Assembly (NCBI GenBank): GCA_024638385.1
Contig: JAHEKJ010000009.1
Coordinates: 1-64,000, forward strand
Reading direction: 5' to 3'
DNA: 64,000 bases
Source: Gammaproteobacteria bacterium
Lineage (GTDB): Bacteria; Pseudomonadota; Gammaproteobacteria; GCA-001735895
Each line of letters starts with the position of its first letter. Position 1 is the first letter of the stretch. A program made the translations under genes and the position numbers. This document shows positions 49,842 to 59,970 of the stretch, in pieces. The notes beneath the pieces were generated by a model. That model was given only the letters and a program-made list of their open reading frames with translations, was not told the origin of the DNA and did not search any database.

Positions 49842-51107
49842 TTGCTGCACCTCGGCGAACAGGACCGGGCAAGGCTCGACGGCCGCGAGGGGCGCGCGCT
49901 GCAGTTCGCGATGGAGACCGTCGTCGCCGCCGCCGAGATCGATCGCGCCGCGGAATTGATCGATATCGGCTTCGCGCACATCGACGCCTGCTTCTACAAC
50001 GGTCGCGCGCACCTCGATTTCGTCAACTACCTGCTCGACGAGGGCGCGTCGCTGGCGGTGCCGGCCTGGACCAACACCGGTCTCGTGTCGCTCGACGATC
50101 TCGGCCTGCGCGACCCGACCAGAAGCGAGGCGATGCGCGAAGCCCACGAGCTGATGCAGGCTTACGTGCGTCTCGGTTGCCGCCCGGTCTGGACCTGCGC
50201 GCCTTACCAGCTGCCGGGCCGGCCGGAGCTCGGCGCGCACATCGTCGGCTCGGAGTCGAACGCGGTCTGCTTCTACAACTCGGTGATCGGCGCGCGCACC
50301 AACAAGTACGGCGATTACCTCGACGTTTGCGCGGCGATCACCGGGCGCGTGCCGGCGAGCAAGCTGCACCTCGACAGTGGGCGGGTTGCCGAAATCCTGT
50401 TCGACGTACGCGGCATCGATCCGGCGCTGCGCGCCAAAGATCTGTTCTATCACCTGCTCGGGCACGTGATCGGCCGTGAAAGCCGCGCCGCGCTGCCGGC
50501 GATCGTCGGCTTGCCCGCGAGCTGCGGCGAGGACGATCTCAAGGCCATCAGCGCCGCGGCGAGTTCATCGGGCAGCGTGCCGCTGTTTCACGCGATCGGC
50601 ATCACGCCGGAAGCGCCGAGCCTCGACGCCGCCTTCGCCGGCGGCGAGCCCGCGCGCACGCTCGAGATCACCGCGGCCGACCTCGAGCACGCGCGCGACG
50701 AGCTGGGCCGGGACGACCGTGAGCGGCCGCTCGCCGGCGTCGCCCTCGGCACGCCGCATTTCTCGCTGGCGGAATTCGAGCGCCTGGTCGCGCTGCTGGG
50801 CAGCCGCGCGATCGATCCGCGGTTGACGTTTTACCTGACGACCGGCCGCCACGTATTCGCCGAGGCCGCGGCACGTGGCTGGACCGCGACGCTGGAGCGC
50901 GCCGGCATCCGCATCGTCACCGATACCTGTACCTATTTCTCGCCCGCGGTGCGCGGGTTGCGCGGCAAGATCATGACCAACTCGGCGAAGTGGGCCTACT
51001 ACGCGCCGGGCATGCTGCCGGTCGAGGCCGTGCTCGGCAGCCTCGAGGAATGCGTCGAGTCGGCGGTTCGCGGCGAGGTCGCGCTCGACGCCTGGGACAG
51101 CGCGTGA
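49842..51107 (+). CDS. Aconitase X, catalytic (large) subunit
   Basis: A 421-residue AcnX (DUF521) protein starting at TTG (LLHLGEQDRARLDGREGRALQFAMETVV), the expected N-terminal pattern. Iron-sulfur and substrate cysteines appear in WTCAPYQ, SNAVCFYNSV, and the late TDTCTYFSPA. AcnX dehydrates cis-3-hydroxy-L-proline in several bacteria, or mevalonate-5-phosphate in archaea. Its stop overlaps the small-subunit GTG (GTGA). Together with nearby betaine uptake this favours a hydroxyproline or betaine role. Confidence 0.85.
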   Translation: MLHLGEQDRARLDGREGRALQFAMETVVAAAEIDRAAELIDIGFAHIDACFYNGRAHLDFVNYLLDEGASLAVPAWTNTGLVSLDDLGLRDPTRSEAMREAHELMQAYVRLGCRPVWTCAPYQLPGRPELGAHIVGSESNAVCFYNSVIGARTNKYGDYLDVCAAITGRVPASKLHLDSGRVAEILFDVRGIDPALRAKDLFYHLLGHVIGRESRAALPAIVGLPASCGEDDLKAISAAASSSGSVPLFHAIGITPEAPSLDAAFAGGEPARTLEITAADLEHARDELGRDDRERPLAGVALGTPHFSLAEFERLVALLGSRAIDPRLTFYLTTGRHVFAEAAARGWTATLERAGIRIVTDTCTYFSPAVRGLRGKIMTNSAKWAYYAPGMLPVEAVLGSLEECVESAVRGEVALDAWDSA

Positions 51108-51526
51108 CGCGGCGTCGACTCGAAGCGGAGGTGCTGATCGCCGGCGTCGCCAGCGGCCTGGCGTTAGTGCTCGACGAACCCCTGAGTTTCTGGGGCGGGT
51201 TCGACCCGCTGGCCGGTGCGATCATCGACGTGCATCACCCGCAGTATCGCGCCAGCGTCGGCGGCAGCGTGTTGTTCATTCCCGCGAGTCGCGGTTCGGC
51301 CGGCACGCCGGGCGGCATCGCCGAGACGCTGCGCAACGGCAGCGGGCCGCGCGCTTTCGTGCTCGGCGAGCGCGACGTCAACATCGGCATCGGCGTGCTG
51401 GTCGCGAACCGGCTCTATGGGCTCGAAGTGCCGGTCGTGCAAATTCCGGCGGAGCAAATGCGCGCGATTCGCAGCGGCGCGCGGGTATCGATCGAACGCG
51501 GGGGCGGTTTGTCAGTCGGCGCCTAG
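51104..51526 (+). CDS. Aconitase X, swivel (small) subunit
   Basis: A 140-residue DUF126 protein; only its C-terminal part is clear in the track ORF, so the GTG at 51104 is the start. EAEVLIAGVASGLALVLDEPLSFWGGFDPLAGAIIDVHHPQYRASVGGSVLFIPASRGSAGTPGGI contains the swivelling-domain serine motif SRGSAGTPGG. It completes the dehydratase active site. Its last 15 bases overlap the convergent Rieske gene's end. Confidence 0.85.
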   Translation: MTRRRLEAEVLIAGVASGLALVLDEPLSFWGGFDPLAGAIIDVHHPQYRASVGGSVLFIPASRGSAGTPGGIAETLRNGSGPRAFVLGERDVNIGIGVLVANRLYGLEVPVVQIPAEQMRAIRSGARVSIERGGGLSVGA

Positions 51527-52651
51527 CGCGTCGAGCACGAGGCGATGAAAGTGATGCAGCGCGTGTTCGCTCTCGCCGGGGCGCGCCGGGTCGACCATGT
51601 AGGCGCCCTGGTCGTAGCTGCGTGAACGCAGGCCGCGCTGCACCGATTCGCACAGGCCGACGTCCTCGGGGCCCAGCACGTCGTTGAAATAATCGGTTCG
51701 CGGCTGGTACTTCTCGCCGTCGAGCGTCAGCGTGTGGCCTTCGAAATTGCTGCGGCCGATATCGACCGGACGAATCGAGGCGATATTGAGTTCCGCCGGG
51801 CCGGGCATGACGTTGAAGGTCGTGTTGGGCCACAGGTACCAGAAGATCGCGTGCGGAAATGCCGGTTTCGCGGCCAGCGGGTAGGCGCTGTTGTCGGCTC
51901 GGATTCGCGGCCCGTACTGGCGCGACCAGAGGGCGCCGAGATCGACCCGGTATTCGTCCATGTCGATGATCGACGCGAAGTCCGGGTGCGCCGGGCGGCA
52001 ATGGTAACACTCGACGTAGTTGTCGACGACGACCTTCCAGCCGGCGTCGATGTACTGGTCGCTGAGAAATCCCGCCGGCGCCGGCCGCAGATCGTCGACG
52101 AACGGCAGGTGCGCGCGAATGTCGCGCTCGAGATCGGCCGCGAGCTCGCCGAGCGGCGTCGCGTCGTCGTCGAGATTGACGAAAACCGCGCCACAGAATC
52201 GCTCCAGGCGCACGGGTCGCAGGCAGAACTCGCCGGGCTCGAAGCCGGGACGCGCCTCGCTCATCGGCGCGCGCGCGAGCTCGCCGGTGGCGGTGTACGA
52301 CCACGCATGGTAAGGACAGACGATCAGGCTGCGCAGGTTGCCGCTGCCCTCGAGTAGCTCGTGCGCGCGGTGCCGGCAGACATTGTAGAAGGCGCGCAAT
52401 TCGCCGTCCTGCGCGCGGATGACGAAGATGCTCTCGTCGCAGAGGCGCAGCGTGGCGAAATCGCCCGGGGCTTGCAGCGAGCTCTCGTGCGCGACGTATT
52501 GCCAGGTCCGGTAGAAGATCCGGCGCTTTTCGAGGGCGTAGATATCGGGTTCGAGGTAATACCCGGACGACAGCGTGTAAGATCGCTCGGGGCGATCGCC
52601 GAGCGGTTTGCGCAGCGGCGGCAGGCCGGGTGCGGAGCCGCCGGCGCTCAA
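51512..52651 (-). CDS. Rieske non-heme iron oxygenase, quaternary-amine type
   Basis: A 379-residue protein; TTG 52651 overlaps the ATPase gene's stop (TTGA), whereas the longer track start lies inside that gene. The Rieske cluster is CRHRAHELLEGSGNLRSLIVCPYHAW. The iron site in NYVECYHCRPAHPDF has the NYxECYHCxxxHP form of betaine, stachydrine and carnitine monooxygenases. These enzymes remove an N-methyl as formaldehyde or hydroxylate the substrate. A partner reductase is not in the window. Coupling to ProV supports a betaine-type substrate. Confidence 0.85.
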   Translation of the reverse strand: MSAGGSAPGLPPLRKPLGDRPERSYTLSSGYYLEPDIYALEKRRIFYRTWQYVAHESSLQAPGDFATLRLCDESIFVIRAQDGELRAFYNVCRHRAHELLEGSGNLRSLIVCPYHAWSYTATGELARAPMSEARPGFEPGEFCLRPVRLERFCGAVFVNLDDDATPLGELAADLERDIRAHLPFVDDLRPAPAGFLSDQYIDAGWKVVVDNYVECYHCRPAHPDFASIIDMDEYRVDLGALWSRQYGPRIRADNSAYPLAAKPAFPHAIFWYLWPNTTFNVMPGPAELNIASIRPVDIGRSNFEGHTLTLDGEKYQPRTDYFNDVLGPEDVGLCESVQRGLRSRSYDQGAYMVDPARPGESEHALHHFHRLVLDALGAD

Positions 52652-53679
52652 GTGCGGCTGTCCATGGCCTTGAGGATCATCGCCTGGTCGATCTCGCCGA
52701 CCACGCGGCCCTCGCCGTCGAGCACCGCGAGCGGTCCCCGGGTCCGAATCGCGAGATCGATCAGCTTGTCCAGCTTGTCGTCCTCGCGGCAGCACTCGGC
52801 CCCGTTGCGCTGCACCTCGTCCGATGCCTCGCGCATGACCTTGCCGACCGACAGCACCTTGTAACGCGGCACGTCCTCGGTGAACTCGCGCACGTAGTCG
52901 TCGGCCGGATCGGCGACGATCTCCTCGGGCGTGCCGATCTGCACGACTTCGCCGTCCTTCATGATCGCGATGTGGTCGCCCATCTTGATCGCCTCGAGGA
53001 AGTCGTGGGTGATGAAGATCATCGTCTTTTGCACCTCGGCCTGGATATTCAGCAACTCGTCCTGCATTTCGCGTCGAATCAGCGGGTCGAGCGCGCTGAA
53101 AGGCTCGTCGAAGATCAGGATCTCGGGGTCGACGGCCATCGCCCGGGCGAGGCCGACGCGTTGCTGCATTCCGCCCGAGAGCTCGCGCGGGTAGTGCTCG
53201 GCCCAGCCGTGCAGGCCGACCTTCTCGAGCACCTGCATCGCCTTTTCGCGCCGCGCCTGCTTGTCCATGCCGCGGATCTCGAGGCCGAAGGAGATATTGT
53301 CGATGACCTTGCGGTGCGGGAACAGGCCGAAATGCTGGAATACCATGCTCATGCGGAAGCGCCGCAGCTCGGTCAGCTGCGCGTCGCTGTACTGCATGAT
53401 ATCTTCGCCGTCGATCAGCATTTCACCGGCGGTCGGTTCGATGAGGCGCGAAATGCAGCGCACCAGCGTCGACTTGCCGCTGCCGGACAGGCCCATGACG
53501 ACGAAGGTTTCGCCCGTCTTGATCTCGAAAGAAACGTCCTTGACGCCGATGACGTGGCCGGTCTGCTCCTGTACCTCGGCGCGCGACAGCGAATGATCGA
53601 GGTTTTTCAGCGTCCGCTGCGGATAGGTGCCGAAGATTTTCCAGATATTCCGGCAGACGATTTTGGGCGCGTCGGACAT
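52648..53679 (-). CDS. proV: Glycine betaine/quaternary-amine ABC transporter ATPase
   Basis: A 343-residue ProV/OpuAA ATPase. Walker A GLSGSGKST (about 66), signature LSGGMQQRVGLARA, Walker B ILIFDEPFSALDP and the N-terminal segment of the family (NIWKIFG) are present. CBS-like regulatory halves follow after residue 255 (KVLSVGKVMREAS...GPLAVLDGEGRVVGEIDQAMILKAM). It drives uptake through the ProW-like permease transcribed divergently 125 bp away. Confidence 0.92.
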   Translation of the reverse strand: MSDAPKIVCRNIWKIFGTYPQRTLKNLDHSLSRAEVQEQTGHVIGVKDVSFEIKTGETFVVMGLSGSGKSTLVRCISRLIEPTAGEMLIDGEDIMQYSDAQLTELRRFRMSMVFQHFGLFPHRKVIDNISFGLEIRGMDKQARREKAMQVLEKVGLHGWAEHYPRELSGGMQQRVGLARAMAVDPEILIFDEPFSALDPLIRREMQDELLNIQAEVQKTMIFITHDFLEAIKMGDHIAIMKDGEVVQIGTPEEIVADPADDYVREFTEDVPRYKVLSVGKVMREASDEVQRNGAECCREDDKLDKLIDLAIRTRGPLAVLDGEGRVVGEIDQAMILKAMDSRT

Positions 53680-53803
53680 GAGATTCTCGTAATCGCTCGC
53701 GGCGGCGTCTCATCTTAGCCCGAAGCGAATCGGGCTGTAAACCGGCCGTCTTGCAGGGGCCCGGTATCGACGCTAAGCTAACGCGGTTGCAGCGGGAGAG
53801 GTC

Positions 53804-55936
53804 ATGAGCACGGTAGTCGACGAGCGGGCGCGGCCGGGCTTTATCGGGGAGGTCTGGAATGAGCACCGGGGCTGGGTCGTCAGCTTCGCCGTGTTCGGGA
53901 TTTCGTTGTTGATCTGGAAGCTGCACGGCGGCGAAACGGCGTTCCCGCCGGGCTGGATCGAGGCTTTCCCGTTCGCCGAGCAGGTCGATGCCTTCGACAA
54001 GTGGCTGCGCCCCTATATTCAACCGACGACGCGCGCGGCCGCGGCGGGCGCGGTCTGGCTTTACGAAATCCTGGTCGACTTCCTGACCTTTACCCAGTGG
54101 CAGGTCGTGTTCGTGATCCTGGTGCTGCCGGCCTTCGCCTATGGCGGCCTGCGCCTCGGGCTGCTCGCGATCGTCGGCGTCAGCTCCTTCCTGGTGCTCG
54201 ACTTCTGGGACGAGTCGATGGAAACCCTGAGCCTGATGAGCATTTCGATCCTGATCTCGGTCATCATCGGGGTGCTGCTCGGTATCCTGGCGTCGCAAAG
54301 CGATCGTTTCGAGGCGGTAGTCAAGCCGATCCTCGACACGATGCAGACGCTGCCGGCGTTCGTCTACCTGATTCCGGCATTCTACCTGTTCGGCATCGGC
54401 CCACCGGGCGCGATACTCGCGACCGTGATCTACGCCCTGCCGCCGGTCGTGCGCCTGACCAACCTGGGTATTCGCCAGGTGCCGGCCGGTATCGACGAGG
54501 CCGCGACCTCGTTCGGCGCGACCCGGCTGCAGTCGCTGGTCAAGGTCAAGATCCCGCTGGCGATGCCGTCGATAAAGCTGGGCGTCAACCAGACGGTCAT
54601 GATGGCGCTGGCGCTGGTCGTGCTGGCGACCTTCATCGGCTCGCCGGGTCTCGGCGACGTCGTCTACTCCGGACTGGTGCGGCTCAACGTCGGCAAGGCG
54701 CTCGAGGGCGGGCTCGCGATCGTTTTCATGGCGGTCCTGCTCGACCGCGTGACCTACGCGATGGGCCACGTCGAGCACAGGAGCGTGAGCCAGCACGATC
54801 ACGTGTTCCGCCTGTTTCCGCAAAGCTGGGAAAACTTCAAGCCGGTGCTCTATCTCGAATACGGCATCGACTGGATATGGCGCCGGGTAGCCGAGGCCGG
54901 CAATCTCGTCGCGCTGCTGATTGCCACCGCGATTTACAGCGGCGCCGCGCTCGTCGACTCCGGTTTCGCGCAAAAACTGCGCGAATTCCTGGTCGCGCGC
55001 AGTTTCCTGCTGGCCAGCCTCGTGCTGATCGCGATCCTGATGCTGCTCGACGCCTACGGCGACGTTTTCGGCAAATTCCCGCGCGCCTGGGAATACAGCT
55101 TTCGCACACCGGTCAACCAGTACATGGACGAGCTGGTCACCAGCGAAGTGTTCTACGCGATCACGAAGAGTATCCGCGAGGGCCTTTACCTGGGTTTGAT
55201 CAATCCGCTGAACGTTTTTCTCAAGGGATTGCCGTGGTGGTATACGACGGGACTGTTCGTCGCCGCCGCCTACCTGTTCAGCGGCCGCGCGCTCGCGATC
55301 GGCACGCTGATCGGATTTCTGTTCATCGGCGCAACCGACCTGTGGAGCTACGGCATGATCACGCTGTCGACAGTTACGGTGTCGGTGTTGATCTGTTTCC
55401 TGCTCGGCGTGCCGCTCGGCATCATGGCGGCCCATAACAAGGCCGTCGACACGCTGCTCAAGCCGGTGCTCGACACGATGCAGACGCTGCCGGTGTTCGT
55501 CTACCTGGTACCGGTCGTGATGCTGTTCGGCGCGGGCCAGGTGTCGGCCGTTATCGCGACCGTCGTCTACGCGCTGCCGCCGCTGGTGCGCTGCACGACG
55601 CTCGGTATTCGCGAACTGCCCGAGCAGATCGACGAGGTCTCGAACTCGTTCGGCGCGTCGATGCTGCAGACGCTGACCAAGATCAAGATTCCGATGGCGA
55701 TTCCGGCGATCATGGTCGGCGTCAACCAGGGCATTATGATGGCGCTGGCGATGGAGGTCGTCACTCCGTTGATCGGCGGCAAGGGGCTCGGACTGCAGGT
55801 CTTCGACGGCATGAACCGGGCCTCGATCGGCATTTCGCTCGAAGCCGGTATCGGCATCGTGATGCTCGCGATCATCCTCGACCGGCTGTCGCAGGCCTGG
55901 ACCCGGACCCAGCGCCAGGCGATGGGCCTGAGCTGA
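53804..55936 (+). CDS. proW: Duplicated, fused ProW-type betaine ABC permease
   Basis: A 710-residue inner-membrane protein containing two BPD permease cores. Core 1 reads VVKPILDTMQTLPAFVYLIPAFYLFGIGPPGAILATVIYALPPVVRLTNLGIRQVPAGIDEAATSFGAT. Core 2 reads LLKPVLDTMQTLPVFVYLVPVVMLFGAGQVSAVIATVVYALPPLVRCTTLGIRELPEQIDEVSNSFGAS. Each has its own EAA loop. ProW normally has one core of about 300-350 residues, so this is a tandem fusion. A good GGGAGAGG lies before the ATG. It works with ProV and the binding protein. Confidence 0.9.
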   Translation: MSTVVDERARPGFIGEVWNEHRGWVVSFAVFGISLLIWKLHGGETAFPPGWIEAFPFAEQVDAFDKWLRPYIQPTTRAAAAGAVWLYEILVDFLTFTQWQVVFVILVLPAFAYGGLRLGLLAIVGVSSFLVLDFWDESMETLSLMSISILISVIIGVLLGILASQSDRFEAVVKPILDTMQTLPAFVYLIPAFYLFGIGPPGAILATVIYALPPVVRLTNLGIRQVPAGIDEAATSFGATRLQSLVKVKIPLAMPSIKLGVNQTVMMALALVVLATFIGSPGLGDVVYSGLVRLNVGKALEGGLAIVFMAVLLDRVTYAMGHVEHRSVSQHDHVFRLFPQSWENFKPVLYLEYGIDWIWRRVAEAGNLVALLIATAIYSGAALVDSGFAQKLREFLVARSFLLASLVLIAILMLLDAYGDVFGKFPRAWEYSFRTPVNQYMDELVTSEVFYAITKSIREGLYLGLINPLNVFLKGLPWWYTTGLFVAAAYLFSGRALAIGTLIGFLFIGATDLWSYGMITLSTVTVSVLICFLLGVPLGIMAAHNKAVDTLLKPVLDTMQTLPVFVYLVPVVMLFGAGQVSAVIATVVYALPPLVRCTTLGIRELPEQIDEVSNSFGASMLQTLTKIKIPMAIPAIMVGVNQGIMMALAMEVVTPLIGGKGLGLQVFDGMNRASIGISLEAGIGIVMLAIILDRLSQAWTRTQRQAMGLS

Positions 55937-56013
55937 TATTTTTCGCACGAAAATCAATCTCTTGGCGGAAAAGTACCCAAACTCGACAAGGCGATATCGA
56001 GGCAGTATGATCA

Positions 56014-56044
56014 TTGCATTCCGCCGCTCGAGGGCGGTTAATAA
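56014..56044 (+). promoter_or_regulatory. Candidate sigma-70 promoter for betaine-binding gene
   Basis: TTGCAT and TTAATA (or TAATAA) are separated by 18-19 bases, 30 bp before the binding-protein gene. A GAGGAG ribosome site seven bases before the ATG follows. A separate promoter would let the abundant binding protein outrun the permease. The match is moderate. Confidence 0.35.
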
Positions 56045-56071: not shown

Positions 56072-57022
56072 ATGCGTTTATCGTTCAAATCGATCCTGGC
56101 CGTAACCACGCTGGCCGTCGGCCTGGGGTCCCTGTCGCCGGCGCAGGCCGCCAAGCGACTGACCGCGCCGGATCCGGACTGGACCGGCGGCCTCGTGACC
56201 TGCCTGGTCGCGCAGTACATCCTGGAAAACGAGCTGGATTACAAGGTCAAGCGCGTGACCATACCGTCGGGTCCGGGCGTGTTCGAGGGCACCCGCTCGG
56301 GCGACCTCGATTTCGCCTGCGAATCCTGGCCTTCGTACAATCCGATCACCAACGAGTACATCAAGGAATTCGGCGGCGACGGTTCGGTTGCCTACCTCGG
56401 TGAAACCGGCATCGTCGGCCGCAGCGGTTACTTCGTGCCGCGCTACGTCGTCGAGGGCGACACGTCGCGCGGTATTCCGGCCTCGGCGCCGGGGCTCAAG
56501 TCTTACCAGGACCTGAATCGCTATAAGCACCTGTTCCGCAGCCTCGAGTCGGGCGATCGCGGTAACCTGATCGGCTGTCCGGTCGCGGCCTGGCTGTGCG
56601 AGGATCAGAAGCGGCTCGACATTCTCGGCGTCGATTTCCACGCGCAGGCGCTCGGTTCGGAAACCGCGCACTGGGCCGAGATTCAGGCCAAGTACAAGCG
56701 CGGCGAGCCGTTCGTGGCTTATGCGTGGGCGCCGCACTGGATTCACGCCGCGCTCGACCTGGTCGAGGTCGAATTGCCGCCCTACGACGAGGCCAATTGG
56801 CCGGCGACCAATTGGGCGCAGGACGTGACCCATTTTCACGGCAACCCCAGCATGCTGAAAGAGCATCCCGACGTGGTCGCGCTGTTGCAGAAGATGAAGC
56901 TGACCAATGAGATGCAGTCCAGCATGATCTACGACATCGACGTCAAGAAGAACGACGCCGAGGACGTCGTCGAGGAATGGATGGAAGCCAACGAAAATGT
57001 CTGGCGCCAGTGGTTGCCCTAG
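56072..57022 (+). CDS. proX: Glycine betaine/quaternary-amine ABC substrate-binding protein
   Basis: A 316-residue OpuAC-type binding protein with signal peptide LSFKSILAVTTLAVGLGSLSPAQAA. It keeps aromatic residues lining the quaternary-ammonium box (DPDWTGG, CESWPSYN, YAWAPHWIHAALDL). A canonical terminator follows 24 bp after the stop. It is the third part of the betaine importer, and its pocket tolerates several N-methylated compounds. Confidence 0.9.
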   Translation: MRLSFKSILAVTTLAVGLGSLSPAQAAKRLTAPDPDWTGGLVTCLVAQYILENELDYKVKRVTIPSGPGVFEGTRSGDLDFACESWPSYNPITNEYIKEFGGDGSVAYLGETGIVGRSGYFVPRYVVEGDTSRGIPASAPGLKSYQDLNRYKHLFRSLESGDRGNLIGCPVAAWLCEDQKRLDILGVDFHAQALGSETAHWAEIQAKYKRGEPFVAYAWAPHWIHAALDLVEVELPPYDEANWPATNWAQDVTHFHGNPSMLKEHPDVVALLQKMKLTNEMQSSMIYDIDVKKNDAEDVVEEWMEANENVWRQWLP

Positions 57023-58530: not shown

Positions 58531-59970
58531 ATGCGCGCCAACAACGTCCTGATCCTGATGTCGGACGAGCACACCCGCTCGGTGCTGGGCACCTACGGCA
58601 ACGCGCTCGCGCAGACTCCGACGCTCGACCGGCTCGCCGCCGGCGGCGTGCGCTTCGACAACGCCTACACGCCGTCGCCGATCTGCATCCCGGCGCGCGC
58701 GAGTTTCGCCACCGGCACGCCGGTATTCGAGCACCGCTGCTGGTCGTCGGCCGAGCCCTATTACGGTCGGCAGACGAGCTGGATGCATCGGCTGCGCGAT
58801 CGCGGCCACCGGGTCACATCGATCGGCAAGTTGCACTACCGCCGCGCCGGCGACGACGTCGGCTTCTCCGAGTCGATCCTGCCGATGTATCTCGCCAATG
58901 GCGGTCGCGGCTGGCCGCAGGGGCTGCAGCGCAAGCCGATGGCCGAGTTTCCCGAGGCCGCGGAGATGGCCGCGCTGCTCGGCCCGGGCGAGACGTCGTA
59001 CACGCGATACGACCGCGATATCGCCGCCGCGGCCGTCGCCTGGCTCGAACTCGAGGCGCCGCGCGAAACCAAGCCCTGGGTCCTGTTCGTCTCGTTCGTC
59101 AGCCCGCACTTTCCATTGTCTGCGCCCGAAGCTTTCTTCGAGCTGTATCGCGATGTCGAGCTGCCGGTACCGTTCGACCGCGATCCCCCGGCCCAGGCCG
59201 ACCATCCGGTCGAGTCGCAGATGCGCGCGTTCTGGGACTATGCCGATCACTTCACCGCCGAATCCGAGCCGCTCGGGCTGAAGAACTACTACGGCCTGTG
59301 CAGCTTCCTCGACGACCACCTCGGGCAGGTGCTCGGCGCGCTCGAGCGCGCGGGCCAGCGTGACGACACGCTCGTGCTCTACACCAGCGACCATGGCGAC
59401 CTGATCGGCAATCACGGTATCTGGGGCAAGTCGTTCATGTACGAGGATTCGGTCGGCATTCCGCTGATCGCGAACGGCCCCGGCATCGCGCCCGCAACCA
59501 ATCCGACGCCGGTCACGCTGGCCGACTTTGCGGCGACGGTCGAACTCGCTGTGGGCGCCGAGCCCGCGCGACCGCACGCGGCATGGCGGGGTCGCCCGCT
59601 GCAGGATTTCTTCGAACGGCCGGAGCCGGATCGACCCGCGCTCGCCGAGTATCATGACGGCGGCAGCCCGTGCGGCGTTTTCATGCTGCGCCAGGGCTCG
59701 TGGAAATTGATCGATTACGCCGAGGGTCACCCGCCGCAATTGTTCGACCTCGAATCGGATCCGCGGGAGACGCGCGATCGCGCCGGCGATCCAGCCTGTG
59801 CGGCCAGGCTCGCCGGGATGCGAAACCGGTTGCTGGAGATTCTCGACCCGGAGGCGGTCAACCGCGCGGCTTTCGCCGACCAGGCGAAGATGATCGAGGC
59901 GCTCGGCGGAATCGACGCGATCCGGGCGAGCCCGAGCTTCAATCACACGCCGATCGAGGAGACGGGCTAG
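58531..59970 (+). CDS. Type I sulfatase (cysteine-type)
   Basis: A 479-residue sulfatase/alkaline-phosphatase fold enzyme. The metal ligands appear early in LILMSDEHTRSVLGTYGN. The formylglycine motif is SPICIPARASFATG with C52 (C-X-P-X-R). SIGKLHYRR and TSDHGDLIGNHGIWGK provide the other metal and sulfate contacts. There is no signal peptide, as for cytoplasmic choline-sulfatase-like enzymes. Next to betaine genes, choline-O-sulfate is one plausible substrate; other sulfate esters are equally possible. Confidence 0.85.
   Translation: MRANNVLILMSDEHTRSVLGTYGNALAQTPTLDRLAAGGVRFDNAYTPSPICIPARASFATGTPVFEHRCWSSAEPYYGRQTSWMHRLRDRGHRVTSIGKLHYRRAGDDVGFSESILPMYLANGGRGWPQGLQRKPMAEFPEAAEMAALLGPGETSYTRYDRDIAAAAVAWLELEAPRETKPWVLFVSFVSPHFPLSAPEAFFELYRDVELPVPFDRDPPAQADHPVESQMRAFWDYADHFTAESEPLGLKNYYGLCSFLDDHLGQVLGALERAGQRDDTLVLYTSDHGDLIGNHGIWGKSFMYEDSVGIPLIANGPGIAPATNPTPVTLADFAATVELAVGAEPARPHAAWRGRPLQDFFERPEPDRPALAEYHDGGSPCGVFMLRQGSWKLIDYAEGHPPQLFDLESDPRETRDRAGDPACAARLAGMRNRLLEILDPEAVNRAAFADQAKMIEALGGIDAIRASPSFNHTPIEETG

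Follow-up and report, generated by a model that had tools for sequence, protein, structure and literature searches.

The window that we analyzed is a 64,000-nucleotide stretch of DNA from a Gammaproteobacteria bacterium (contig JAHEKJ010000009.1, positions 1 to 64,000). On its forward strand, at positions 53804 to 55936, it encodes a two-core ProW-type permease of 710 amino acids, assigned on the basis of the open frame, two matches to PF00528 and the alignment of the two cores with each other. Its divergent partner on the reverse strand (52648 to 53679) is a ProV-type ATPase of 343 amino acids (TIGR01186 proV, 377 bits; cut-off, 326.6). A periplasmic substrate-binding protein of the OpuAC/ProX type (316 amino acids; PF04069, 158 bits) is encoded at 56072 to 57022 on the forward strand. 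Directly downstream of the ProV gene, and on the same strand, is the gene for a CntA-like (Group V) Rieske oxygenase (51512 to 52648; the start is approximate). The forward strand also carries genes for an aconitase X family protein (49842 to 51107; PF04412, 390 bits), which is related to cis-3-hydroxy-L-proline dehydratase, and for a choline-sulfatase-like sulfatase (58531 to 59970), whose TIGR03417 score of 255 bits is under the curated cut-off of 433.

The permease consists of an N core (residues ~93 to 328), a linker with extra hydrophobic helices (~329 to 471) and a C core (~472 to 707). The Pfam family BPD_transp_1 (PF00528) matched the chain twice, with 140 bits in all, and the two cores (residues 93 to 328 and 472 to 707) gave a gapless alignment of 236 residues that were 44% identical and 67% similar (E = 2e-70). 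These results uphold the preliminary description of two complete ProW-type cores in a single chain, and its estimate that the motif segments were about 60 percent alike was a fair one. Each core carries an EAA-type loop (GIDEAATSFGA...KIPLAMP in the N core and QIDEVSNSFGA...KIPMAIP in the C core), and the GC content at third codon positions (GC3) is alike in the two halves (0.92 and 0.90). The length and the number of cores fit the two-core ProW-family format (two BPD_transp_1 cores in about 650 to 720 amino acids). Curated NCBIfam models for both ChoW and ProW were matched above their cut-offs (TIGR03416, 454.9 bits against 363; NF008196, 441.1 bits against 439), although these whole-protein scores are sums over two domains, which makes the cut-offs easier to pass. 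The nearest solved structure was the OpuA transmembrane domain (7ahc, E = 6.6e-52). An AlphaFold model of the whole 710-residue protein, built from 21 orthologs, was unusable (mean pLDDT, 43.9; pTM, 0.30). An antisense open frame of 863 residues (53423 to 56014, reverse strand) spans the whole permease; given about 90% G+C at third positions, it is probably a chance shadow frame.

Next, we looked into the binding protein and its likely substrate. Its best solved relative was TmoX (4xz6), with a weak match of 89 bits. The binding pocket of TmoX, with its Trp cage and the residue Glu131, which forms a hydrogen bond to the N-oxide of TMAO, has been described (PMC8918994). The cage residues W37, W86, W174 and W219 of the window protein align with W55, W102, W177 and W222 of TmoX and were invariant in 25 of 25 sequences. 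At the position of Glu131, in contrast, all 25 binding proteins have Ser or Thr, and the substrate is therefore not fixed by analogy with TmoX. Judging from these residues, the substrate is likely to be a small quaternary or tertiary amine, with TMAO itself not favored. In many relatives, the sulfatase gene lies closely downstream of the binding protein gene.

These observations also bear on whether the system could be a true TmoXWV, dedicated to the import of TMAO. Among solved structures, TmoX is, after all, the one closest to the binding protein, and two-core permeases are found in tmo-like operons. In Paracoccus aminophilus JCM 7686 and Ruegeria conchae, a two-core permease adjoins a close TmoX homologue (528 and 584 bits to 4xz6, respectively); because these neighbors are so close to TmoX, the tmo-type operons of the two species can be said to use the two-core format, and we infer that the tmo systems of R. 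pomeroyi and Pelagibacter have two-core permeases as well. However, the match of the window protein to TmoX is weak beside those of its counterparts in P. aminophilus and R. conchae, and the residue that bonds TMAO has been exchanged throughout, so that we consider a dedicated TMAO importer improbable. In P. aminophilus and Gemmobacter fulvus (loci L080 and L083), genes for a TorT-annotated protein, a sensor kinase and a response regulator precede the two-core tmo-type operon, which suggests TMAO-sensing control of the transporter in these two species.

The ProV gene was head-to-head with the permease gene in every related locus that showed both, and the binding protein gene was 3' of the permease gene in nearly all loci reaching far enough, with only a shorter match at that place in L015. 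The module conserved across related loci is thus a divergent ProV together with the permease and the substrate-binding protein. The Rieske gene was found 3' of ProV in six related loci and was missing from that place in other sufficiently long ones (e.g., L008, L010 and L024). ProV had been thought to couple not to the permease but to the Rieske gene; this is not borne out by the related loci, where the permease has ProV as a constant partner and the Rieske gene is an optional neighbor. The Rieske protein aligned with the carnitine monooxygenase CntA (6y8j) with 254 bits over 355 residues, and its Rieske motif, DNYVECYHC, aligned with DNYMECYHC of CntA. It thus keeps the E-C-Y-H-C motif, and the Cys-X-X-Cys pair in this motif is known from some Group V quaternary-ammonium oxygenases (PMC10952381). 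The CntA-like neighbor suggests that some lineages catabolize the amine. Moreover, because a CntA-like quaternary-amine oxygenase is encoded near the transporter in some relatives and a choline-sulfatase-like sulfatase in many, the amine is probably taken up to be catabolized no less than to serve in osmoprotection. No Pfam CBS family matched ProV at an E value of ≤0.001, so that OpuA-type osmotic gating is unsupported. The aconitase X gene stays near the transporter module in several relatives.

Our preferred reading, to which we give a probability of roughly 0.8, is that these genes encode a type I ABC importer of the ProU/OpuA (betaine/choline/proline) family in which a single chain supplies both transmembrane halves as a pseudo-heterodimer. 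The binding protein would trap the amine in its tryptophan cage and then dock on the permease. The single permease chain would provide both transmembrane halves by intramolecular pairing, in place of the homodimer of single-core ProW, and two copies of ProV would engage the EAA coupling loops of the two halves to drive import. The two cores, the two coupling motifs, the conserved gene set, the fixed N/C asymmetry and the cage residues can be read directly from the sequences; from these we infer the intramolecular pairing, the 1:2 stoichiometry of permease to ProV, the direction of transport and the class of substrate.

To place the two halves, we used a tree of 64 cores comprising window-type halves, tmo-type halves and single cores. 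The window-type N halves and C halves of all orthologs tested each formed one clade with 100/100 support, and the tmo-type N and C halves also formed one clade each (support of 100/98 and 100/99, respectively). Since the window-type halves are each monophyletic, the duplication is older than the divergence of the orthologs, and the order of the halves has not changed. The best tree placed the window-type halves among single cores, separate from the tmo-type halves; however, the constraint tests joining window-type with tmo-type were weak (AU P value = 0.044 for the N halves, 0.066 for the C halves and 0.14 for the joint constraint, which was not rejected). Several positions of the permease are invariant inside each half yet unlike between halves. 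The clearest of these half-specific sites is E651, which lies in the C half, close to P655 and past the EAA loop. It was invariant across all aligned orthologs, and valine was found in its place in the N half and in 12 of 12 sampled single-core relatives. The earlier proposal that the fusion fixes asymmetric halves therefore stands as regards fixed order and asymmetry, given the 100/100 clades and the half-specific invariant positions, but not as regards the rarity of the design.

The same asymmetry can be read in more than one way. The 710-residue chain might itself dimerize, so that four cores come together and one of the two in each chain is regulatory or otherwise not engaged in transport, and the C half has indeed diverged at family-constant positions (E651, P655, C597 and V612 in the EAA loop). 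Nonetheless, EAA-type loops and family motifs are kept in both halves, and an importer requires two cores and no more, a number that a single chain already supplies; we therefore regard a four-core assembly as very unlikely. Under the pseudo-heterodimer reading that we prefer, the fusion could have let the halves specialize. Maltose permease is a heterodimer with a one-sided substrate site in MalF, and other betaine-family transporters have symmetric halves. Our analysis would allow, as a tentative and rather doubtful proposal, that E651 is a candidate substrate site present in the C half only, as in maltose permease, and that the fusion arose independently of that in the tmo-type permeases.

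A scan of bacterial genomes gave 27 relatives of the permease, 25 of them full length, and those that were aligned were 69 to 82% identical. They include Candidatus Thioglobus MED-G25, an Acidiferrobacter bin and the Olavius algarvensis gamma-3 symbiont. A search for both domains with hmmsearch confirmed two cores in every complete ortholog. The whole permease frame, free of internal stops, was also present in 14 genus relatives, a set that overlaps in part with the 25 full-length orthologs because some genomes belong to both. Single-core ProW genes are common and the source genome is a draft of 232 contigs, but the suspicion that a frameshift or assembly join had united two adjacent single-core genes is refuted because independent genomes keep the same continuous frame, two-core genes are present in complete plasmids too, and the 143-residue linker has conserved blocks of its own in the ortholog alignment.

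We also searched for other two-core permeases of the ProW family. The source genome holds two more (~688 residues), on contigs C190 and C68. The former adjoins a gene for an OpuAC-type binding protein (locus L065), and the latter is flanked by two genes for ProV-type ATPases (locus L078). With the C190 protein as the query, matches at an E value of ≤1e-75 were found in 13 of 399 evenly drawn Pseudomonadota genomes, its own included, and both cores were present in every matched frame that we read. In the plasmid collection, the same query matched 23 records, 21 of which covered at least 80% of it. The carriers include Shinella, Rhizobium, Sinorhizobium, Ruegeria, Paracoccus and others, with complete plasmids of Rhizobium, Shinella, Ruegeria and Paracoccus among them, and the usual annotation is "ABC transporter permease subunit." Two-piece joined plasmid matches to the window permease were not taken as evidence of fusion, as both halves of the query seem to have matched single-core permeases there. 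A full-text search of mostly open-access literature found no paper that explicitly describes a fused or tandem betaine permease. The two siblings in the genome, the 13 genomes and the plasmid records contradict the view of a two-core ProW as unusual: the window permease is an ordinary case of an existing, little-discussed class, and its fused design is conserved in many relatives.

The original observation is thus correct, and the format itself is already established. Rather than an oddity, the two-core ProW is a format that occurs widely in Pseudomonadota and that tmo-type operons apparently share. The one-sided glutamate E651, as seen in the alignments, is the most interesting remaining point. 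With E651 in the C half only, the fixed asymmetry offers a simple handle on whether the halves of a betaine-type importer differ in their roles, which the homodimeric ProW and OpuA cannot reveal.

Compared with known systems, the window transporter resembles TmoXWV of Ruegeria and Pelagibacter in combining a binding protein, an ATPase and a two-core permease. It differs in that its permease halves fall, in the best tree, into other clades than the tmo-type halves, in that TmoX has Glu131 whereas the window binding protein does not, and in that the ATPase gene is codirectional with the permease gene there and divergent here. ProU/ProW and ChoW (E. coli ProVWX and Sinorhizobium ChoXWV) belong to the same core family, as the two NCBIfam matches indicate, and their gene set is matched here by the genes for a ProV-type ATPase and an OpuAC-type binding protein alongside the permease. 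Each ProW or ChoW chain has a single core and forms a homodimer, in contrast to the two fused cores of the window permease. OpuA of Lactococcus (7ahc to 7ahh), the closest solved transmembrane domain, is a homodimer of one core fused to a binding domain, with an ATPase that carries CBS domains, whereas the window system has two cores, a separate binding protein and a ProV without a CBS match. In the fused two-core importer permeases FbpB/HitB (iron) and ThiP (thiamine), both halves lie in one chain that works with one ATPase in two copies; the window permease is like them in its two-half chain and unlike them in its substrate family.
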